Assembly (NCBI RefSeq): GCF_035918235.1
Contig: NZ_CP109485.1
Span: forward strand, 4,712,001-4,776,000
Origin: Streptomyces sp. NBC_01445
GTDB lineage: Bacteria > Actinomycetota > Actinomycetes > Streptomycetales > Streptomycetaceae
Direction of reading: 5' to 3'
DNA: 64,000 nt
Shown: one piece after another, positions 21,436 through 30,157 of the stretch
Layout: each line of letters opens with the position of its first letter
How positions within the stretch are numbered: position 1 is the stretch's first letter
Notes under the pieces: model-generated
Databases searched by the model: none
Told to the model about the DNA's origin: nothing
Seen by the model: the letters and a program-made list of their open reading frames with translations, nothing else
Translations under genes and position numbers: made by a program

Positions 21436-22092
21436 ATGCGCATTGTCATCGCTGGTGGTCATGGTCAGATCGCGCTGCGGCTCGAGCGTCTGCTCGCCGC
21501 ACGCGGAGACGAGGTCGCGGGCGTCATCCGCCGCGCCGAGCAGGCGGACGACCTGCGGGAGGCCGGGGCCGAGCCCCTTGTGTGCGACCTGGAATCGGCG
21601 TCCGTGGAGGAGGTCGCCGGGCTTCTGGAGGGCGCGGACGCGGCGGTGTTCGCGGCCGGCGCGGGGCCGGGCAGCACGGCCGGGCGCAAAGACACGGTGG
21701 ACCGCGGGGCGGCCGTGCTGTTCGCGGACGCGGCGGAGCGGGCCGGGGTCCGGCGGTACGTCGTGGTGTCGTCGATGGGCGCGGACCCGGCCCATCAGGG
21801 TGACGAGGTCTTCGACGCGTATCTGCGGGCCAAGGGCGAGGCGGACGTGTCCGTACGGGCCCGGTCCGGTCTGGACTGGACGATCCTGCGTCCCGGGATG
21901 CTCACGGACGACGCGGGCACCGGACTCGTACGTCTGGAGGCGTCCACCGGGCGGGGTCCGGTGCCGCGGGACGATGTGGCGGCGGTGCTCGCGGAGCTGG
22001 TGGACACCCCCGCCACCGCGGGGCTGACGCTGGAGCTGATCTCCGGGTCGGCGCCGGTGATGGTGGCGGTCAAGTCGGTCGCGGGGAACTGA
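21436..22092 (+). CDS. NAD(P)-binding protein, atypical SDR
   Basis: Product of 218 residues with a Rossmann start MRIVIAGGHGQIALRLERLL and the atypical SDR features YVVVSSMGAD and YLRAKGEADVSVR plus LDWTILRPGML. Such proteins (SDR_a5 type) reduce flavins, quinones or unknown ketones, or sense NAD(P)H. No partner is evident; a small Cys-containing protein gene is convergent 7 bp downstream. The gene starts 76 bp from the divergent lipoprotein. Confidence 0.88.
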   Translation: MRIVIAGGHGQIALRLERLLAARGDEVAGVIRRAEQADDLREAGAEPLVCDLESASVEEVAGLLEGADAAVFAAGAGPGSTAGRKDTVDRGAAVLFADAAERAGVRRYVVVSSMGADPAHQGDEVFDAYLRAKGEADVSVRARSGLDWTILRPGMLTDDAGTGLVRLEASTGRGPVPRDDVAAVLAELVDTPATAGLTLELISGSAPVMVAVKSVAGN

Positions 22093-22099
22093 GCGCGGT

Positions 22100-22324
22100 T
22101 CAGAAGAGCGGGAGCTGGCCGGGCACTGTCGGGACCACGTAGCCGTCGAGGGACGGCTGCGCGGCGCCGAGCTGCGCCGGCCTGCGGGAGCCGGGGCAGG
22201 ACACGAGTTCGCCCGCGCTGCGGGCCCCGGGCGGGTCGTGGCGGGCGAAGCGGCCGGCCACGACGGCGATGTCGCGGCGGCACTCGGGGCAGTTTCTGCG
22301 GCGAGACGCCGACGGTACGGACAT
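22100..22324 (-). CDS. Small conserved-looking protein with CxxC motif
   Basis: Product of 74 residues, [20 protein letters not shown] at the start and ending [11 protein letters not shown]. One CxxC pair (CPEC) and a third Cys (VSCPGS) suggest a zinc knuckle or incomplete ribbon. The ribosome-binding site is weak. It is convergent with the SDR gene. Not recognised as a named family; kept because codon use is typical for the genome and the ORF fits the gap exactly. Confidence 0.55.
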
Positions 22325-22399
22325 GGGATCAGTCTGCGCCACGGGGCGTCCGAGGATCCGAAGAAGCCCTCTCCGGACGGCGATGTCACGGTCCGCGGG

Positions 22400-22440
22400 G
22401 CTTCCTGAGGCTTCCCTGAGGGCTTCCCTGGGAGCTTCCC
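22400..22440. repeat. Degenerate GCTTCCCTGAGG repeats upstream of nadE
   Basis: Three to four imperfect copies of GGCTTCCCTGAG in tandem. Together with repeated CGTCCCGTCCA units at about 22475-22500 they occupy the 262-bp gap before nadE; no gene is seen there. Confidence 0.55.
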
Positions 22441-22586
22441 GCCATGTGGCGGCGCCGGACTCACAGCCTGCCTCGTCCACGTCCCGTCCACGTCCCGTCC
22501 CGGCGCATCCCGCGCCCCCTGGCCTCCCGGGTACCCCCAGTAGGGTGGGCGCGACAGCACCCCATGAACCGGAGCAAGGAGCAGAC

Positions 22587-23417
22587 GTGAGCGAGTCGGC
22601 GTCTAACGACCTGCAGCAGGAGATCGCCCGGGAGCTCCAGGTCGCCGAGACCTTCGAGGCCGAGCGTGAGATCGAACGGCGGGTGGCCTTCCTCACCGAG
22701 CGGCTGACCTCCACCGGCCTGCGCTCCCTCGTGCTCGGCATCAGCGGCGGTGTCGACTCCACCACCGCCGGCCGGCTGTGCCAGCTCGCCGTGGAGCGGG
22801 CCCGGGCCGCCGGACACGAAGCGCGGTTCTACGCGATGCGGCTGCCCTACGGGATTCAGGCCGACGAGCACGACGCCCAGCTCGCGCTCTCCTTCATCCG
22901 GGCCGACCACGTACTGACCGTGGACATCAAGCCCGCCAGCGACGCCGCGATCGAGGCCGCACTGGCCGCCGACGTGAGCTTCCGCGACGAGGGCCACCAG
23001 GACTTCGTGCACGGCAACATCAAGGCCCGGCAGCGCATGGTCGCCCAGTACGCGGTGGCCGGCGCGCACAACGGCCTGGTCGTCGGCACCGACCACGCCG
23101 CCGAGGCCGTCTCCGGCTTCTTCACGAAGTTCGGCGACGGCGCCGCCGACCTGGTCCCGCTGACCGGCCTGACCAAGCGCCGGGTGCGCGCCGTCGCGGA
23201 CTCGCTGGGCGCACCCGCCGAGCTGGTGTGGAAGGTCCCCACGGCCGACCTGGAGACCCTCGACCCGGGCAAGGCCGACGAGGACGCGCTCGGGGTCACC
23301 TACGACGACATCGACGACTTCCTGGAGGGCAAGCCGGTCGACGGGCGGGCCTTCGAGACGATCGTCCACCGCTACCGCCTCACCGACCACAAGCGCCAAC
23401 TCCCCATCGCGCCCTAG
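22587..23417 (+). CDS. nadE: NH3-dependent NAD+ synthetase
   Basis: Last step of NAD biosynthesis: deamido-NAD + ATP + NH3 to NAD+. GTG 22587, with AAGGAG five bases upstream, gives 276 residues. It has the ATP-pyrophosphatase P-loop [14 protein letters not shown], then [10 protein letters not shown], the [20 protein letters not shown] substrate segment and a C-terminal [12 protein letters not shown] motif. It is the ammonia-only form of about 275 residues without a glutaminase domain. A perfect terminator and then the left end of an integrative element follow. Confidence 0.97.
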
Positions 23418-23442
23418 AAGGCTCTGCTCGCCGGGGATGCAA

Positions 23443-23486
23443 AGAACCCCCTCCGAACTGCGTTTCCGCAGTTCGGAGGGGGTTCT
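23443..23486 (+). terminator. Strong bidirectional-type hairpin after nadE
   Basis: A perfect 20-bp stem (23443-23462 with 23467-23486) with a TTTC loop. Its end is seven bases from the left 48-bp attachment repeat, so it marks the original chromosomal junction. Confidence 0.9.
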
Positions 23487-23492
23487 CCACTA

Positions 23493-23540
23493 TGTGGCGG
23501 CGCCAGGATTCGAACCTGGGAAGGCTGAGCCGGCAGATTT
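23493..23540. repeat. Left attachment site (48-bp direct repeat)
   Basis: Identical over 48 bp to 29858-29905, with the next base differing and CAGTC again shared. On the minus strand it reads as the 3' half of tRNA-Tyr (variable arm, T-arm GGTTCGAATCC, acceptor end). No 5' half follows, so it is the displaced original tRNA end rather than a tRNA gene. Confidence 0.92.
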
Positions 23541-23633
23541 GCAGTCCCCACAGGCGAGTGGGTCTGACCTGGCCCTTTTCTGAGGGACTAGCGCGTTGCC
23601 CCACGCTGGCCCCGCTAGGGCGTGTCCGGCGCT

Positions 23634-23702
23634 ATGGATGCGGTCGAGGCGATGGCTGATCCGGAGGGCCGGGCTAAGGCGATCTGTGAGGTGCTGGCCT
23701 AG
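23634..23702 (+). pseudogene. 22-codon remnant next to the left attachment site
   Basis: ATG 23634 opens MDAVEAMADPEGRAKAICEV and stops after 22 codons at TAG. The Ala/Glu-rich start resembles N-termini of small DNA-binding proteins of actinobacterial elements, but that is only an impression. The stop overlaps the end of the convergent secreted-protein gene. Low confidence. Confidence 0.3.
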
Positions 23703-24238
23703 ATGTCGCCGACGGCGAACTGCTCGATCGTCGCGCCGTAGTCGGTGAGGCCCCCGACCACGCAACGGGCGCCGAGCTCGGTCAGGTTGCTGGTGGTGCG
23801 GCCGCTGCCACGTGCGGTGCCTCCCGCGAAGGCGCCGGTGGCGATGGAGCCGCCTTCCAGGGAGAAGGACTGCGTGTCGCCGCGGAACGTCGTCTGGTCG
23901 ATGACCGTGCGGGTTCCGTCGTTCCAGTAGATCGTCGCCTTGGCGTAGCCGGGCCCGATGGGGCCGGGGCACTGGGCGGGAAGGCTGGCTTGGAATTGGA
24001 TCGAGCCGCCGGTGATCTTCGGGTGGGATTTGGATGTGCAGTTGCCCATGTCGCCATTGGCGGACAGCTGCAACGTCTTCTTGGCGAAGGTGATGCCGGG
24101 GTTGTACTGCACGCTGAGGGCGCCGCCATTGCAGACGACATGGCCGATGTCGGCCGGGGCTGCGGCCGATGCCTGGCCGAGGGGGGACAGAGCGATCGCC
24201 GCGGCGGCAACAGCCGCCGACATGAGGGGACTACGCAC
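23699..24238 (-). CDS. Secreted protein of unknown function with four Cys
   Basis: GTG 24238 (GAGG seven bases upstream) gives 179 residues: signal peptide with PLGQASA-A cleavage region, then a mature domain of about 150 residues. It has four cysteines (HVVC, MGNC, PAQC, GARC), likely two disulfides, and beta-rich sequence such as ITGGSIQFQASLPAQCPGPI. No enzyme motif was recognised. It lies inside the integrative element in a region of lower GC, near two other exported-protein genes; such cargo may act at the cell surface or on competitors, but this is speculation. Confidence 0.75.
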   Translation of the reverse strand: MRSPLMSAAVAAAAIALSPLGQASAAAPADIGHVVCNGGALSVQYNPGITFAKKTLQLSANGDMGNCTSKSHPKITGGSIQFQASLPAQCPGPIGPGYAKATIYWNDGTRTVIDQTTFRGDTQSFSLEGGSIATGAFAGGTARGSGRTTSNLTELGARCVVGGLTDYGATIEQFAVGDI

Positions 24239-24414
24239 GTGAGGGCCTCGTTCCAACTAGCTGGATGGGGCGAACACGGGAAGCGAATCCGATTTCGCAT
24301 GGGCCAGCCCGCGCCGCACCATCGGGCCGTCACAACGCCACCCGACCGGAGCACGCACCGCAACCGTGCAGGTCAGGCGCCCGGCAGCGAGGCCGGGCAC
24401 CTGCTTCCACTTCG

Positions 24415-24443
24415 GCGGTCGCCAGCCCTGGCTCGGCGACCGC
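24415..24443 (-). terminator. Hairpin downstream of the secreted-protein gene at 24576
   Basis: GCGGTCGCC (24415-24423) pairs with GGCGACCGC (24435-24443). It lies in the 337-bp gap between two secreted-protein genes; the rest of this gap shows no ORF with genome-like codon use. No strong U-tract. Confidence 0.4.
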
Positions 24444-24575
24444 GCCGCTCAGTCAATTTCCACGATGAGCGGTACGCCCCCGCGTCAGGCCCAGTTCGCA
24501 CATGCGGCCTGATCGCACAGGTACTCAGTATCGAGCTAAGCCGATAGACCGGTTAGTGACCCACGAGTGGTGTGA

Positions 24576-24995
24576 CTAGAGGACGGCGACGGTGAACGTG
24601 ACGTCAACCGGCTGGTGGTTGTCGCTGTAGACGCTGGTTACCGAGATGATGTCGGTGCCGCGGGGGCAGCCAGTCACACCGTATCCGGCAGTCCGCACGG
24701 TGACGCTGGCGCCGCCGTTGTTGGCTGTGGCGAGGATCGCCGCATTCTGCAGGTCGTCGATGTCCGGGTCCGACACCTTGAGGCAGTACGTCCCTACCTT
24801 GGGGTGCGTTACCTCGGAGATGTTCTTGGCTGCCAGGAGCGTGCCGGGCTCGTGGACCATCGCGGCCGCGCGGGCGTAGGGGGCGTACATGTCGGCCGGT
24901 ACCGCGTTCGCCGTGCCGGCCAGGACGGGAACCGACACCAGGGCGGCGACCGTGACGGCGATGGCGCGACTGCGCCTGGTGATGCTGTGAGACAT
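24576..24995 (-). CDS. Small secreted protein, intact member of a tandem pair
   Basis: ATG 24995 with AAGGAAG upstream gives 139 residues: basic start, hydrophobic core AIAVTVAALVSVPVLAG, cleavage near ANA-VPA. The mature domain of about 107 residues has two cysteines (GTYCLKV, VTGCPRG) and ends DVTFTVAVL. The next gene upstream (25103-25529) encodes a clear paralogue with matching landmarks (YA.A.A, K.I..VT.P.VG.YC, ..C....D...V, DV.F....). Family not recognised; a small beta-sandwich exported protein is likely. Confidence 0.8.
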   Translation of the reverse strand: MSHSITRRSRAIAVTVAALVSVPVLAGTANAVPADMYAPYARAAAMVHEPGTLLAAKNISEVTHPKVGTYCLKVSDPDIDDLQNAAILATANNGGASVTVRTAGYGVTGCPRGTDIISVTSVYSDNHQPVDVTFTVAVL

Positions 24996-25102
24996 GGGAG
25001 TACTTCCTTCTTGTCGGCTGCGTTGCCCCGGAGGTTGCCGGGGAGCGGCCAGGTTGCCCTGGGACGGGCGGTCCCCGGGTCCCTGCTGTTCGGACGGGAT
25101 GA

Positions 25103-25529
25103 TCAGGGGACGAGGAGCATGAAGGGCACGTCGACGTAACTGCCGCTGGCGGTGCCGATGTAGACGGTCACCGTGTCGTCCGCGTTCGAGCACTCGGGGG
25201 ACGGGGTGGTGCGCACCAGCGCAGCTGCAAAGGGCGAGCTGCCCGCAGCTACCAGGGTCACGACCGGGGTGCTGCGACTGACGTCGATCTTCGTGGCGTC
25301 GTCGAAGGTCACGCAGTACAGGCCGACACCGGGTTTGGTGACTGACTTGATTCCCTTGGACTGGGCGCGGGTTCCGTCCGCGTTGATCTGAGCGGATGCC
25401 TGCGCGTAGCTTGGCCTTGATGGGTGAATCGTCCGCGATGGCCACACCCCCGAGGACTCCTGCGGACACGAGGGCCACCGCTACGGCTGTCCCGATGACT
25501 CCCCGGCGGGTCCTGGCGGTCTTGATCAT
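25103..25529 (-). pseudogene. Frameshifted paralogue of the adjacent secreted protein
   Basis: ATG 25529 has GGAAGGA upstream and encodes a good signal peptide (MIKTARTRRGVIGTAVAVAL...GGVAIADDSPIK). About 40 codons in, near 25405-25420, the homologous reading moves to another frame, which continues SYAQASAQINADGT to DVPFMLLVP and stops at 25103. Joined, the two parts give an export protein of about 140 residues aligned end to end with the 24576-24995 product. A one-base indel (real or a sequencing error) explains the break. It is the first gene after the palindromic operator. Confidence 0.8.
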
Positions 25530-25572
25530 GATTTCCTTCCCTGACTGGGCGTGATCGCCATGGCGACAGGAT

Positions 25573-25604
25573 CACTGTCTGTGTATATATGGATACAGAC
25601 AGTG
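25573..25604. promoter_or_regulatory. Large palindromic operator upstream of the secreted-protein genes
   Basis: Perfect 10-bp arms CACTGTCTGT (25573-25582) and ACAGACAGTG (25595-25604) around a 12-bp AT-rich centre (GTATATATGGAT). It lies 44 bp before the start at 25529, where it would cover the promoter, and about 250 bp before the plus-strand genes. Such sites are bound by GntR-type regulators (KorSA/Pra-like) of actinobacterial elements, though no such regulator gene remains here. Confidence 0.75.
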
Positions 25605-25850
25605 ACTAGCAGCCGGCGGGCAAATCACTCACCCAAAGAGATCAAGAACGGCCCTTTCCGGGAGGAAGGTCAACGGCAGCTGCACCGGCGCCTGCCCCCA
25701 CTGCCGGCCTGACACCGAGCTAGGCATTCAGGACTGAGAGAAGCCTGGCCGGAAGGAAGGGATGGAGACCGGGCGGGGCTCCGCGGAAATCCTCCGAGGC
25801 CAACACCCGTACCGCATGCACGCACCGGCCATTCGGGTGACCATGGACGC

Positions 25851-26063
25851 ATGGCGACGGCGCCGATAGTCGTGCACCCGCCGCTCGGCACGGGCGGCCG
25901 GCGGGTAACCGCGCGCGGACAGATCCTCGGCCTCGCCTACTCAGATGGGGACGTCATCGAGTTCCTGCGCCGCGCGGGCCTGCCGGACGGGGAGGACCTG
26001 CTTGAGGATCCGTCGTGGGTGAAGTGGCACGGCGGCCGGGCGCACCACTACGAGGCTGCATAA
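25851..26063 (+). CDS. Small conserved protein of actinobacterial integrative elements
   Basis: Product of 70 residues, MATAPIVVHPPLGTGGRRVT at the start, then GQILGLAYSDGDVIEFLRRA and a C-terminal WVKWHGGRAHHYEAA. I recall closely similar small proteins in pSAM2-like elements upstream of replication genes; function unknown. No clear ribosome-binding site. It is separated from the palindrome at 25573-25604 by 246 bp that contain no other gene. Confidence 0.65.
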   Translation: MATAPIVVHPPLGTGGRRVTARGQILGLAYSDGDVIEFLRRAGLPDGEDLLEDPSWVKWHGGRAHHYEAA

Positions 26064-26194
26064 GAGGCAGCGCGCTGGAACCAACCGGTACGCGTGGGAG
26101 AGATCGTTTCCTGCCATGGGGCGTCCACGGTGGGCACCTGGGGCCGATGCGCTCCGCGAACGCCGTACGCCCCGGCGTCGACATCAAGTCTCGT

Positions 26195-26638
26195 ATGTCC
26201 TACACCCGTTGGCTCGGCATCGGCACCGGCACCGGCACCGGCACCATGGCGCCCCTGCCGCTGGCCGTCCTGGCCCTGGTCGAGAGGGAAGAGACCACCG
26301 CCCCCGCCCGGGGGGAGGTGGTCTCTTCCCTCCCCAGGCGCGCGACATGGGATGGGGCCGTGGCCACCGGCTGCCGCCACACAGAGAAGTACGTCCGCAC
26401 CGGCCTCGAACGCGGACTGGCCCTGGTGAGGTCCCGTCCCGAATCCGGCGCGGCCTCGCAGGCGTTCGGGGTGGCCCAGTTCCTCGCCAAGCAGCACGCC
26501 CAGTGCCCCGGCCCCTGCGGCCTGGACGCGCTCGGGCAAGAGGTCATCGCCGCGGCTGTCTCCGTTGGGGTCCCCGAGCCGTATGCGGCCCGCGCGATCG
26601 GCAACGGGCTCAACGCCGATGCGGGGAGGGCAGCATGA
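26195..26638 (+). CDS. Replication-module protein, probably a C-terminal remnant of a primase-polymerase-like gene
   Basis: Open frame of 147 residues to 26638. Only the C-terminal part (from about residue 50: VATGCRHTEKYVRTGLERGL through GVPEPYAARAIGNGLNADAG) looks like a protein domain; it resembles the helical C-terminal region of bifunctional primase/polymerase proteins of such elements. The N-terminal part runs through four GGCACC repeats and a large inverted repeat and is probably not original coding sequence. The end overlaps the next gene by ATGA. True start unclear; the N-terminal catalytic domain is missing. Confidence 0.5.
   Translation: MSYTRWLGIGTGTGTGTMAPLPLAVLALVEREETTAPARGEVVSSLPRRATWDGAVATGCRHTEKYVRTGLERGLALVRSRPESGAASQAFGVAQFLAKQHAQCPGPCGLDALGQEVIAAAVSVGVPEPYAARAIGNGLNADAGRAA
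26284..26332. repeat. Perfect 16-bp inverted repeat
   Basis: GAGGGAAGAGACCACC (26284-26299) and its exact complement (26317-26332) surround a 17-bp GC-rich loop. RNA or single-stranded DNA of either strand would form a very stable stem. It lies at the 5' end of the remnant replication gene. Could be an origin or transfer-origin relic, a terminator, or a deletion junction. Confidence 0.8.
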
Positions 26639-26964
26639 GCCCTCACCCCCGCTCCCCGCGTGCCGCCGAGCGACGGCACCTGCGGCTGGTCGTGGGCGAC
26701 CGAGAGGGCGTCGCCGAAGGCGTCCCCATTGCTGTTCGCCCTGACCCGCAGACGAACGACGGATACCAGCCCCGGTCCGTTCTGCACGTCGTGGCGCCCC
26801 CGGACTGGCACGTGGCCCCGTCAGCCCACTCGTGGTGCTCCTGCGGCCGTGAACGCCAAGCCATCGGCCGCGCCGCCGTACTGCGCCTCGTGGCCGCCCA
26901 CAACGAACACCGCGACACCTGCCCGCAGCTCGCCACCACCAGGGAAGGAGGCAAGGCCGTATGA
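26635..26964 (+). CDS. Small zinc-finger-like protein of the element
   Basis: Product of 109 residues opening MSPHPRSPRAAERRHLRLVV; the C-terminal half has HSWCSCGRERQAIGRAAVLR and HNEHRDTCP, a C-x-C...H...C arrangement that could bind zinc. It overlaps both neighbours by 4 bp (ATGA at 26635-26638 and 26961-26964), so it belongs to a translationally coupled replication operon typical of pSAM2-like elements. Function unknown; appears intact. Confidence 0.65.
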   Translation: MSPHPRSPRAAERRHLRLVVGDREGVAEGVPIAVRPDPQTNDGYQPRSVLHVVAPPDWHVAPSAHSWCSCGRERQAIGRAAVLRLVAAHNEHRDTCPQLATTREGGKAV

Positions 26965-27580
26965 GCATCCCCAACGACATGAGCCCCGACCTGTGGGAGG
27001 GGCTCGATCACATCGCCCCCGAGCAGATCACCGGACCCGCGTGGGACGAACCCGTCCCGCTCAAGGCCCGCCCGCCCCTGCCCGCCTTCCCCGTCGACAC
27101 CCTCCCGCCTGGCTCGGGGACATGGTTCGAGGCGTCGCCGAGGAAACCCAGACCCCCATCGACCTCGCCGGATGCCTCGCCCTCGCGGTCATCGCCACCG
27201 CCGCCGGCGGGCGCGTGAAGGTCTGCGTGCGCGGCCACTGGCGCGAGCCAGTGAACATCTACACCGCCGTGGCTCTGGACCCCGGAAACCGCAAGAGCGC
27301 CGTGTTCGACCTCATGGTGCGCCCCCTGCTCGACGCCGAGAAGGCACTCATCGAGCTGTCCGGGCCCGTGCGGGCCGAGGCCGAGACCCTGGCCCGCCTC
27401 GCCAAAGCAGCCGCAGAGAAGGCCGCACAGAAAGCCGGAGCGGCCGAGCCAGGGTGCTCGCCTTCCAGAAGGTCACCGAGGCCCGACTGGGGCAGGACGG
27501 AAGCTTCGCTCCGATCGTCAAATGGGCGTCCAAGCGGGACGGGGCCGTGGCACGGATCGCGGGCCTGCAACCCCCTCCCA
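26961..27580 (+). pseudogene. DUF3987-like primase-helicase gene, frameshifted and internally deleted
   Basis: ATG 26961 opens MSIPNDMSPDLWEGLDHIAP. Near 27108 (CTCCCGCCTGG) the homologous reading shifts frame: LPP then continues WLGDMVRGVAEETQTPIDLA in another frame, including a Walker-A-like ALDPGNRKSAVF. At about 27450 the frame shifts again and the sequence jumps to a C-terminal-like block (WASKRDGAVARIAGL), implying loss of several hundred codons. The remains match DUF3987-type proteins that replace a helicase in element replication. It cannot be functional as read. Confidence 0.75.
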
Positions 27581-27581
27581 A

Positions 27582-27671
27582 GAGGTTCTGTCAGGTTTTA
27601 GTTCAGTTCTGTCAAAGATCCCGACCCGTCCATACATGCAGGTCAGAGGCCATGCGTCGAGGTTCTGTCAG
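27582..27671. repeat. Direct repeats at the junction of two truncated genes
   Basis: GAGGTTCTGTCAG occurs at 27582-27594 and again at 27659-27671, with another GTTCTGTCA between them near 27605. The repeats lie where the DUF3987-like C-terminus and the excisionase N-terminus should be, and may mark the recombination that truncated both. Confidence 0.6.
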
Positions 27672-27800
27672 TCCGCCTTCTACCGCATGCGCGCCCGCGG
27701 CCAAGCCCCCCGCCTCCAGAGGCTGCCCAACGGGCACCTCCGTGTCAGCCGAGACGACCTCGATGCCTGGTGGGCTGCCTGCGAGCAGCGCGCTGCCTGA
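27659..27800 (+). pseudogene. N-terminally truncated excisionase
   Basis: The frame to TGA 27800 ends SAFYRMRARGQAPRLQRLPN followed by GHLRVSRDDLDAWWAACEQ, matching the second half of the MerR-like HTH_17 excisionases (recognition helix, then the PNG-x-x-R-x-S-x-x-x-L-x-x-W motif). The first helix (about 20 residues of LT..E...L.VS type) is missing and is replaced by unrelated repeat-containing sequence. Excision is therefore unlikely to be supported. It lies directly upstream of the integrase, as usual. Confidence 0.75.
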
Positions 27801-27813
27801 CATCGCCCTTTGA

Positions 27814-27845
27814 GCCCGCCCCGGATCTCCGGGGCGGGCCCTTTT
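27814..27845 (+). terminator. Terminator between excisionase and integrase remnants
   Basis: Perfect 11-bp stem (27814-27824 with 27829-27839), ATCT loop, then CCTTTTGATTTT. It sits 15 bp before the integrase ATG. Confidence 0.85.
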
Positions 27846-27859
27846 GATTTTGGAGAAGC

Positions 27860-29219
27860 ATGGGCACGACGTACGACGTCCGCATCTGGGCTGTCCGGCA
27901 GCACAAAGACCGTAAGCAAGCCTCAGCAGAGCTGCGTTGGAGGACAGGCGACACTCCGCACTCTCAGACGTTCCAGACCAAGACACTGGCCGAAGGCCGC
28001 CGCGCCGAACTTCTTCGCGCGGTGCACGCTGGCGAGCCGTTCGATGAGGGAACGGGCGTACCGGTCAAGGAGCTTCGGGACCGCAACGACGTGAGCTGGT
28101 ATCAGCATGCCCTCGACTACATCGCGATGAAGTGGCCCCACTCCCCCGGGTCGACCCGCCGCACGCTCGCAGAAGCGATGGCCACCGTCACCCCTGTGCT
28201 CGTGAAAGACACCAAGAGCATGACCGATGCCAGGACAGTGCGCGCAGCCTTGTACGGCTAGGCTTTCAACATGAACCGCCGCGGCGAGGAACCCCCCGCC
28301 GACGTGGCCAAGGTGCTCGACTGGTTCGAGCGGAAGTCACTCCCCAGATCGGCGCTGTCCGACCGGATGCGCGTACGGACAGCACTCGATGCGCTCACCA
28401 AGAAGCTGGACGGTACGACGGCCGCTGCGAGCACCATTCGCCGGAAGCGGGCCATCTTCCACAACGCCCTTGGCTACGCGGTCGACGCCGATCGCCTCGC
28501 CGCCAATCCGCTACCCCAGGTCCGGTGGAAGGCACCCGAGCAGGTCTCGGACGAGGTGGATCCCGCCTGTGTGCCGAGACCGCGCCAAACGGCGACACTG
28601 CTCAGTGCCGTGCGTGCACAGGGCCCGAGGGCGCCGCATGGTCGCCTTCTTCGGATGCATGTACTTCGCGGCGGCACGGCCGGCGGAGGCGATCGGGCTC
28701 CGCTTGGCAGACTGTGACCTCCCACGCCGTGGATGGGGCACGCTGCGGCTGCGCGAGACGCGCCCCCGCTCTGGGTCCGCGTGGACCGACACGGGCGAGT
28801 CTCACGACAGGCGGGGACTGAAGCACCGGCCGCGCAAGGCGGTCCGAGTGGTCCCCATCCCCCCGGACCTGGTCGCGCTGCTCCGCTGGCACGTCACGGC
28901 GTACGGGGTGTCACCCGACGGCCGTCTGTTCCGCACGCTGAGAGGCGGCATCATCCAGGACACCGGCTACGGCGATGTGTGGGCCGAGGCTCGCCGGCGG
29001 GCGCTCTCTCCAGCGCAGTACGTGTCTACGCTGGCCAAGCGCCAATACGACCTTCGTCATGCCGCCGTGTCGACATGGCTGAGTTCCGGAGCCTAGCCAC
29101 AGGCGGTCGCGCAGAGAGCGGGGCACAGCGTGGCCGTCCTGTTCCGCGTCTACGCGAAGTGCCTGGACGGTGCGGAGGCCACAGCCAACGCTCGGATCGA
29201 GGCCGCGTTGAAGGGCTAG
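27860..29219 (+). pseudogene. Tyrosine-recombinase integrase with two TAG codons and a frameshift
   Basis: ATG 27860 (GGAGAAGC upstream) begins an integrase of about 450 codons. Amber codons interrupt it at 28259-28261 (after ALYG, before AFNMNRR) and 29094-29096 (after WLSSGA, before PQAVAQRAGHS). A frameshift near 28620-28632 joins LLSAVRAQG to RRMVAFFGCMYFAAARPAEA. The catalytic set is otherwise still readable: Arg in AARPAEAIGL, YDLRHAAVSTW, RAGHSVAVLFRVYAK with the final Tyr. It targets the adjacent tRNA-Tyr. Both stops could derive from CAG by one C-to-T change. Recently inactivated. Confidence 0.88.
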
Positions 29220-29693
29220 TGCCGCATCAGGCAACGTTCGCCCTGGTGAGGAACCAAGCCAACACAGCCACGCCGATGGGCAACGCAACAAGGTAGCCGA
29301 CGAGGATACCGACGCCCGGATCAGCCAGCGCAGGAAAGACCCAGTTCACTGCTGCAGCCACGAGCAGTCTCACCGTTGCCAGCGCAAGGAGAGCGGCGAC
29401 AACAGCAAGCCGACGCGGCGGACCCGCCCCGCGATACAACTCAGCCGCAGGCCCGATCGCGATCAGGCCCGTCACGAGGAGGACGAAACCAGTGTCGGGC
29501 AGCCACCCGAACGGCCACCCCACCAGAGCGACCAACCCGGAGACAGCGAGGCCGCCCAGCTCCAGCGCGACGGTGGCCACTACCGGGTGGTCCCACGAGG
29601 GGCCTCGGATCGAGCCGCTCCCACTGTCCTTCTCATCGGCCACGTCGTCAGAGTAGCCATCGACAGGGCGAACGTTGCCTGATGCGGCACTAG
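29216..29693. mobile_element. 478-bp insertion with 30-bp terminal inverted repeats (MITE-like, with passenger ORF)
   Basis: The first 30 bp (29216-29245, starting CTAGTGCCGCATCAGGCAAC) are repeated exactly in inverted orientation at 29664-29693. CTAG at the outer ends could be a 4-bp target duplication (CTAG is favoured by some IS families, for example the YTAR preference of IS701) or part of the repeat. The interior holds one reading frame for a small membrane protein and no transposase. Its left edge coincides with the integrase TAG stop. A transposase acting from elsewhere in the genome would be needed for mobility. Confidence 0.75.
29227..29643 (-). CDS. Small membrane protein inside the 478-bp insertion
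   Basis: GTG 29643 gives 138 residues opening VADEKDSGSGSIRGPSWDHP, then about four hydrophobic segments (GGLAVSGLVALVGWPFGW, TGFVLLVTGLIAIGPAAELY, LAVVAALLALATVRLLVAA, VGILVGYLVALPIGVAVLAW). The last five codons (RANVA) and the stop lie within the left terminal repeat, so the gene and the repeat evolved as one unit. No family recognised; start uncertain. Could be a real passenger or a chance frame, but the hydrophobic pattern argues for a real protein. Confidence 0.6.
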   Translation of the reverse strand: MADEKDSGSGSIRGPSWDHPVVATVALELGGLAVSGLVALVGWPFGWLPDTGFVLLVTGLIAIGPAAELYRGAGPPRRLAVVAALLALATVRLLVAAAVNWVFPALADPGVGILVGYLVALPIGVAVLAWFLTRANVA

Positions 29694-29807
29694 TAGCAGC
29701 CCATGGGGCGCCCCACAGGTGCCCCACACGCACTGGTCAGCACGCGACACAGGGTGAGACACAGTGGGGCAATACGCCTAAAGCGGATCTGCCGTCCGAG
29801 GAAACGA

Positions 29808-29853
29808 CGAGAGGGCCCGTTCCCAGCGTATTTGCTGGTCACGGACCCTCTCG
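29808..29853 (-). terminator. Terminator of tRNA-Tyr
   Basis: CGAGAGGGCCCGT (29808-29820) pairs with ACGGACCCTCTCG (29841-29853), with additional CCAGC/GCTGG pairing inside; minus-strand tail CGTTTCC. It starts five bases beyond the attachment repeat. Confidence 0.7.
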
Positions 29854-29857
29854 GTCG

Positions 29858-29905
29858 TGTGGCGGCGCCAGGATTCGAACCTGGGAAGGCTGAGCCGGCA
29901 GATTT
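29858..29905. repeat. Right attachment site within tRNA-Tyr (48-bp direct repeat)
   Basis: Second copy of the 48-bp core; it contains the acceptor 3' strand, T-arm, variable arm and part of the anticodon arm of tRNA-Tyr, so integration restored a full tRNA on this side. The distance between copies is 6,365 bp. Confidence 0.92.
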
Positions 29906-29941
29906 ACAGTCTGCTCCCTTTGGCCGCTCGGGCACACCGCC
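29860..29941 (-). tRNA. tRNA-Tyr (GTA anticodon), target of the integrative element
   Basis: 82-nt type II tRNA on the minus strand: acceptor GGCGGTG paired with CGCCGCC, D-arm GCCCGAGCGGC, anticodon stem-loop CAGACTGTAAATCTG (anticodon GTA), long variable arm, T-arm CCAGGTTCGAATCCTGG. Intact and presumably functional. Confidence 0.95.
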
Positions 29942-30157
29942 ATGGGTTTGCTGCTTTGGATCTCCGCTGTGGGGCGGTGCTCCGTGGCAACGACGTAAAC
30001 GATACCTGATGGACGGGGGTGCTTCGCCACCCGATTGATCGGTACTCGGGGGCGGGGTGATGGCTAGGCTTTGCGGATGCGGCCCAGGGAGCCAGGGCCG
30101 TGGATGACGCATCCAGACGCAAGCCGTTTCACAACCCGATACAAGGAGCCACAGGAC

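Follow-up and report, generated by a model that had tools for sequence, protein, structure and literature searches.

In the window analyzed here, a 64,000-nucleotide stretch of Streptomyces sp. NBC_01445 (contig NZ_CP109485.1, positions 4,712,001 to 4,776,000), a 6.4-kb segment at 23493-29905 lies between two copies of a direct repeat at a tRNA-Tyr gene. We find that this segment is very probably the decayed remnant of an actinomycete integrative and conjugative element (AICE) in the tRNA-Tyr 3' end, carrying a later, transposase-less cassette with IS630-type ends at the stop codon of its integrase gene. The tRNA target, the attachment (att) copies, and the remains of the mobility and replication genes are listed below, with positions counted from the first base of the window.

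23443-23486: hairpin with 20-bp perfect arms, the native tRNA-Tyr terminator, which adjoins the tRNA at the empty site of genome G163
23493-23540, plus strand: left att copy, an orphan tRNA-Tyr 3' end
26961-27568, plus strand: remnant of a DUF3987 helicase-type replication gene, by comparison with Streptomyces sp. CB01635
27663-27800, plus strand: excisionase remnant with an HTH_17 match below the Pfam cut-off; approximately 112 bp, including the front of the helix-turn-helix, are deleted relative to CB01635
27860-29219, plus strand: tyrosine integrase pseudogene beside the right att, with two internal stops, one on each side of a frameshift; its intact 453-aa relative in CB01635 has 96% DNA identity
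29858-29905, plus strand: right att copy, completing the tRNA 3' end; 54 bp with one mismatch when extended to 29911
29859-29941, minus strand: intact tRNA-Tyr, anticodon GTA, the integration target (ARAGORN)

The two att copies, 23493-23540 and 29858-29905, match exactly over 48 bp, or over 54 bp with one mismatch, and lie 6365 bp apart. An earlier account of this DNA, made from its letters alone (the sequence-only reading), had described an exact 48-bp repeat whose right copy completes the tRNA and whose left copy is an orphan 3' half, and repeat alignment and ARAGORN bear this out; no tRNA was called by ARAGORN at 23493-23540. An 81-bp query around the left copy matched only the two att places in the 11.47-Mb genome (E 0.001). 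The terminator now adjoins the orphan 3' end, the arrangement predicted for entry of an element into the tRNA gene. The GC content within the element is unremarkable. A tyrosine integrase would have placed the AICE in tRNA-Tyr, with element DNA re-making the tRNA 3' end as the right copy and the original 3' end, together with the native terminator, displaced to the far side as the left copy. Direct repeats formed in a tRNA 3' end by site-specific integration and a tyrosine or serine integrase gene beside att are both features of AICEs, and both are found here, the latter as the integrase pseudogene at the right att.

A query of the tRNA region matched 293 of 295 Streptomyces genomes; from these matches 30 loci were aligned and 20 wider regions taken. 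One genome of another species (G163) has the empty site, in which homology to the left flank runs to about 22308 and is followed by approximately 135 bp, the terminator, and then directly the tRNA-Tyr in the alignment. With up to three mismatches allowed, the att repeat occurs in 159 of 219 genomes searched, and 25 of these 159 have at least two copies; these are copies anywhere in a genome rather than at this site alone, and the pattern does not cover genomes with a diverged tRNA. Since the site has one copy in some genomes and two or more in others, and an empty site can be aligned, the 48-bp repeat is not due to chance. Other species carry related elements at tRNA-Tyr, with integrases 70 to 89% identical to that of CB01635 (L034 to L041) or 53% identical (G040). 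G040 was ruled out as an empty site because this integrase relative lies near the tRNA in the wider region. The sequence-only reading had suggested looking for an empty site in sister strains; the one same-species genome seen, CB01635 (G161), is occupied, and the empty site is found in another species.

CB01635 is assigned to the same species as the window strain, and its tRNA-Tyr site holds a larger element. The array there runs, in order, left flank, secreted-protein gene, second terminator with att, integrase fragment, third att, and a long element that reaches the end of contig C56 and resumes at the end of contig C19, with about 21 kb visible. The left end of the element in the window matches the third att unit of this array. 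The long element encodes an open integrase (453 aa; PF00589, E 3.3e-4, below the curated cut-off, and PHROG 1, E 2.6e-24), an open DUF3987 helicase (515 aa, E 1.6e-97), and an open FtsK/SpoIIIE-like protein (730 aa; PHROG 1358, E 1.7e-32). On contig C56 (L077:5742-11396), two further att copies and secreted-protein genes are stacked at tRNA-Tyr, one gene encoding a glycine-rich protein with RTX repeats and another being a second related copy. This stack is an accretion of several remnants.

Compared with its CB01635 relative, the window integrase has 50 substitutions in about 1360 bases and one 2-base gap, and the two internal stops flank the gap. The replication gene has a frameshift (its matches fall in different frames) and has lost about 556 bp from its interior; a further deletion of about 529 bp removes its 3' end. 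Together with the excisionase deletion, these lesions confirm that the integrase, excisionase, and replication genes are all broken, as had been claimed. The transfer protein of CB01635 has no match in 23401-30000 at E 0.001, and since the window element has no match to an FtsK/SpoIIIE-type transfer protein, it is called a remnant rather than a working AICE. The identification as an AICE remnant thus draws on the repeats, the empty and filled sites, the intact same-species relative, the separate lesions in three genes, and the missing transfer gene match. A fuller relative at the site in the same species and an empty site in another support the earlier view that tRNA-Tyr holds an integrative element whose mobility genes have been lost.

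Several observations weigh against this interpretation. Single lesions could be sequencing errors; two stops and three deletions longer than 100 bp oppose that for the whole. The CB01635 element is split over two contigs, and the unmatched tails at their ends, between the excisionase and integrase genes, point to an unassembled stretch between them. At E 0.01, neither Pfam nor NCBIfam matches its FtsK-like protein, which is recognized only by the PHROG match and a weak FtsK match (E 0.064). Window positions 23633-26654 are not colinear with the CB01635 element, so CB01635 is a relative and not a direct ancestor. Positions 26136-26754 have 84% DNA identity to another CB01635 element that lies near a tRNA-Ser (L080) and has relatives of the replication and transfer proteins; taken with the lack of colinearity, this makes the window element a mosaic remnant.

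The intact att copies, and a related element with an intact integrase in the same species, would also suit a non-decayed satellite relying on full AICEs at this site for integrase, excisionase, and replication functions, and in cis mobilization of such remnants after accretion has been proposed as possible (PMC9513070). We consider a satellite very unlikely, as the broken genes derive from the gene complement of a full element and are not a streamlined set, and the same compact element is in none of the other tRNA-Tyr loci compared. The decayed AICE would be unable to leave by itself but might be moved by another tRNA-Tyr integrase acting on its att copies.

The second component of the segment is a 478-bp unit that begins at the 3' end of the integrase pseudogene.

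29216-29693: predicted IS630-type mobile insertion cassette, inserted at the CTAG containing the stop codon of the integrase gene
29216-29245, plus strand: left inverted-repeat arm, 30 bp
29227-29643, minus strand: passenger gene for a 138-aa hydrophobic protein; its last codons and stop lie within the arm
29664-29693, minus strand: right inverted-repeat arm, 30 bp, 100% complementary to the left

The arms are 418 bp apart, with CTAG on both sides. In the homologous element of CB01635 the cassette is absent, and a single CTAG is found there, formed by the integrase gene end and stop codon. Seven related elements from other species (L007, L008, L012, L013, L015, L016, and L024) likewise lack the cassette at this position, and insertion in the lineage of the window is therefore simpler than loss. 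CB01635 has a 97% identical copy elsewhere, again between CTAGs; it lies immediately downstream of a different integrase-like gene close to a tRNA-Arg. The copies found in MZ04 and NBC_01446 have other flanking bases, arms identical at 60 of 60 positions, and interiors of 95.9% and 94.7% identity, respectively, and a copy in G141 has again different flanks, with arms identical at 59 of 60 positions and an interior of 71.8%. One old insertion accounts for the copies in G177 (L136, identical in position to L251) and S. violaceoruber (L252), which have a left flank in common. The unit appears, from its sequence, to be a transposase-less mobile insertion cassette (MIC): it has terminal inverted repeats of insertion sequence (IS) type, a passenger without a transposase gene, a target duplication, and different insertion sites.

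Some details fit this less well. A few bases beside the CTAG differ between the window and CB01635, and because of this difference the target duplication is read from the flanking CTAGs. The arms are not always the best-kept part of the unit, with 53 of 60 positions identical in G207 at an interior identity of 92.8%, and 53 and 54 of 60 in G177 and S. violaceoruber. Inversion or a strong hairpin would also be compatible with perfect 30-bp arms on either side of a single gene, which would make the unit an invertible or regulatory segment rather than a transposing cassette. This explanation, already disfavored, is extremely unlikely given that one site exists in filled and empty forms, that copies occur at other CTAG sites in several genomes, and that IS630 transposase genes end in the same arms.

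For the transposing cassette, an IS630-family transposase acting in trans would recognize the arms and move the unit by cut-and-paste into the TA within CTAG, and insertion here would have taken place at the CTAG of the integrase stop codon. A preference for TA in CTAG is named in the title of a 1991 paper by Tenzen and Ohtsubo that is cited in PMC2170065. CTAG occurs 28 times in the window, compared to approximately 174 expected from base composition; the cassette target is thus rare in the window and here coincides with a stop codon. No full-length transposase match was found in genome G000 or the draft CB01635 genome. This also weighs against a mobile cassette, which is probably stranded today, and its present mobility is doubtful.

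The 138-aa passenger protein probably has four membrane spans, as judged by eye. It has matches in 11 of the 295 genomes, including its own and that of the sister strain, and two of these are partial. The gene is present in nine full-length copies, the one in the window included, all without a stop. Ratios of nonsynonymous to synonymous substitution (dN/dS) are 0.40 to 0.65 between the window copy and the eight others and reach 1.05 among the others. Homologs in G108 and G248 have no arms within nine mismatches, and from sequence these armless genes may be the chromosomal source of the passenger. The 138-aa gene was considered as AICE cargo and rejected, based on the homologous CB01635 element without the unit and with a single CTAG. 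The sequence-only reading had taken the enclosed genes as element genes; the second of its two small proteins (29227-29643) belongs to the separate cassette insertion.

The arms are widespread in the genus. A near-perfect arm pattern was found in 52 of 295 Streptomyces genomes, with a reversed control in none. Among 73 arm loci examined, 34 gave 35 inverted pairs (up to five mismatches per arm, less than 3.3 kb), and 39 had no such pair; the pairs under-represent plain IS copies, in which the second arm has diverged further. The outer positions are TA on both sides in 28 of the 35 pairs and CTAG in 25, tallies that are not independent of the search, as the pattern holds the AG of CTAG and the pairing arm all of it. 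At least 300 of 377 IS630 transposase residues, some in pieces, lie inside 21 of the 35 pairs, a shorter part inside 5, and none inside 9. For example, the transposase between the arms at L176:1249-2379 matches NF033545 (IS630) with 160 bits at a cut-off of 100, as well as DDE_3. IS5 was rejected as the family owning the arms, since the transposase is of IS630 type. On plasmids, the arm lies within a gene annotated as IS630 transposase in 5 of 9 records that carry it.

Elements with paired arms thus contain a transposase alone, a transposase plus passengers, or a passenger alone. Searches of 19 passenger-candidate proteins against Pfam identified, between paired arms, a glyoxalase, a mycothiol-S-transferase (two loci), an APH-type phosphotransferase, a hexapeptide repeat protein, an alcohol dehydrogenase (with an adjacent regulator, by eye), and SMI1/KNR4, as well as an alpha/beta hydrolase whose match is below the curated cut-offs. 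A methyltransferase, a cupin, a cytidine deaminase, and an NAD-binding NmrA-like protein are less certain passengers, with a single arm or a worse second arm. Six of the 19 candidates had no Pfam match and one had a weak match only. At L176, L213, and L217, the transposase is flanked by a well-matching arm and a more diverged one, with extra DNA alongside that ends in a third arm. This layout would fit two inverted IS copies around a gene, one transposase having later been lost, and the window cassette would fit the loss of both transposases from two such copies, as far as their sequences can suggest. In one genome (G166), two loci (L171 and L172) each have an IS630-type element with a 172-aa passenger, flanked on both sides by inverted copies of another transposase-like gene; the two loci look like one insertion duplicated with its surroundings.

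We tentatively propose, at slightly less than an even chance, that one lineage of IS630-type (Tc1/mariner-like) ends serves as a general single-gene vehicle across Streptomyces. The same 30-bp arms at the TA of CTAG would carry many unrelated small detoxification-type enzymes or uncharacterized membrane proteins, with or without a transposase, as a cassette pool moving between AICEs, plasmids, and chromosomes. Such a pool would be the transposon equivalent of integron cassettes, with no integron involved. A comparison of cassette and core identity was rejected as proof of transfer between species, as the genomes disagree. MZ04 supports transfer, with 95.8% in the cassette and 87 and 92% in two core stretches; NBC_01446 (95.4 versus 94 and 96) and S. 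longispororuber (87.9 versus 88 and 93) do not. If such ends do regularly capture and spread single genes, they would offer a simple route for detoxification or resistance-type genes among soil actinomycetes, and the 30-bp arms make such elements easy to find. At this locus, a gene first taken for element cargo arrived independently, in a transposon too small to be visible in a gene list except through its passenger.

The cargo proper of the AICE remnant consists of three genes for secreted proteins near the left att.

23699-24256, minus strand: open gene, secreted-looking protein (signal peptide judged by eye)
24576-24995, minus strand: open gene, secreted-looking protein
25103-25529, minus strand: third secreted-protein gene, a relative of its neighbor; frameshifted, with an open relative in G065

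The protein from 23699-24256 has matches in 7 and that from 24576-24995 in 21 of the 295 genomes of the genus, each including its own, and neither has a match in CB01635. The pair 24576-24995 and 25103-25529 is also adjacent in G065 and G179. In the window, the signal peptide and mature part of 25103-25529 lie in different frames. The two open secreted proteins and the 138-aa protein have no family in Pfam, NCBIfam, or PHROGs, a single sub-threshold, chance-like Pfam hit of the second secreted protein having been set aside. The two open secreted genes have dN/dS values of 0.55 to 1.19 compared to homologs, with no clear constraint; the method is crude at this GC content, was not relied on, and was rejected as proof of selection.

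It could be argued that the 29227-29643 gene and everything else within the 6.4 kb form a single AICE remnant, in which selection preserved the cargo once mobility had been lost. Two of the secreted-protein genes are indeed open, as is the 138-aa gene, all nine full-length copies of the latter lack stops, and the secreted pair also occurs in other species. However, the 138-aa gene sits in a unit that is absent from the homologous CB01635 element and is found at other places, and the third secreted gene is frameshifted while the open ones show the dN/dS range given above. We regard this reading as very unlikely, and the secreted-protein genes are cargo in decay rather than a protected set. The sequence-only reading had two secreted-protein genes and two small proteins still open and concluded that cargo outlived the mobility functions. 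The reading frames it named are open, and some cargo genes are open while the mobility genes are broken; it did not include the broken third secreted gene, and neither a kept set nor clear constraint was found. Retention of the cargo as a set is not supported, with one of three secreted genes broken, the open ones at dN/dS of 0.55 to 1.19 and without a match in the sister genome, and one "small protein" being the passenger of the cassette.

AICE decay, an SLP1-type islet at the same tRNA, and MICs are already known, and the window remnant is one more case of AICE decay. In S. coelicolor, an islet beside the Tyr-tRNA with anticodon GTA is bounded by a 112-bp repeat with one mismatch and labeled "Possible SLP1 insertion" (PMC1934918). 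The window element resembles it in the tRNA, the anticodon, and a repeat at the tRNA, and the CB01635 relative has an integrase, a helicase-type replication gene, and an FtsK-like protein. It differs in the repeat, which is 48 to 54 bp and not 112. The helicase-type replication remnant matches DUF3987, which is not among the AICE replication classes (RepSA, RepAM, and Prim-Pol) named in PMC3218068, and the main text of that paper does not contain the name DUF3987. Decayed AICEs with leftover cargo and repeats, and accretion of several elements at one tRNA, are described for a Streptomyces population (PMC9513070), resembling decay and accretion at tRNA-Tyr here. The decay example of that paper, however, is in a glycosyltransferase gene and its accretion example in tRNA-Arg, and the relevant sections contain no cassette insertion.

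MIC231 is moved by IS231, of the IS4 family. MIC231 of Bacillus cereus and mic-qnrD (PMC3913671; ISsaga, PMC3129680) share with the window unit two IS-type ends around a passenger, no transposase, a target duplication, and presumed movement in trans. In contrast, the window unit has IS630 (Tc1/mariner-like) ends and TA in CTAG as its target, and such ends recur around many different passengers. ISY100 and IS630, which duplicate TA (PMC2170065), are alike in transposase family and target duplication; as described there they have a single transposase gene, whereas many of the paired-arm Streptomyces elements have extra genes. IS630 cassettes with varied passengers in Streptomyces were not found in the titles and abstract openings of the papers listed from one open-access library.

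Three small open reading frames (ORFs) lie between the secreted-protein genes and the replication remnant.

25851-26063, plus strand: 70-aa ORF, PHROG 17005, function not assigned
26195-26638, plus strand: open element gene with no assigned function; an 81% identical relative lies beside a replication gene in CB01635 (contig C38)
26635-26964, plus strand: small ORF upstream of the replication gene, 84.5% identical to its CB01635 counterpart

The 70-aa ORF has relatives at four other places in its own genome, with up to 97% protein identity, one of them partial. No relatives of the CB01635 integrase, replication, or transfer proteins were found in these four regions. Outside the element, an NAD synthetase-like gene (nadE) at 22269-23417 lies between the gene at 21436-22092 and the native tRNA-Tyr terminator in both the window and CB01635. 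No match to this gene was found among 37 tRNA-Tyr loci in other species (27 genomes), several of these loci being only about 3 kb and not reaching that far. A 13-nt match to the att start was seen when att relics bracketing this gene were considered, and was judged too short to count. The NAD synthetase-like gene may represent an earlier islet at this hot spot.

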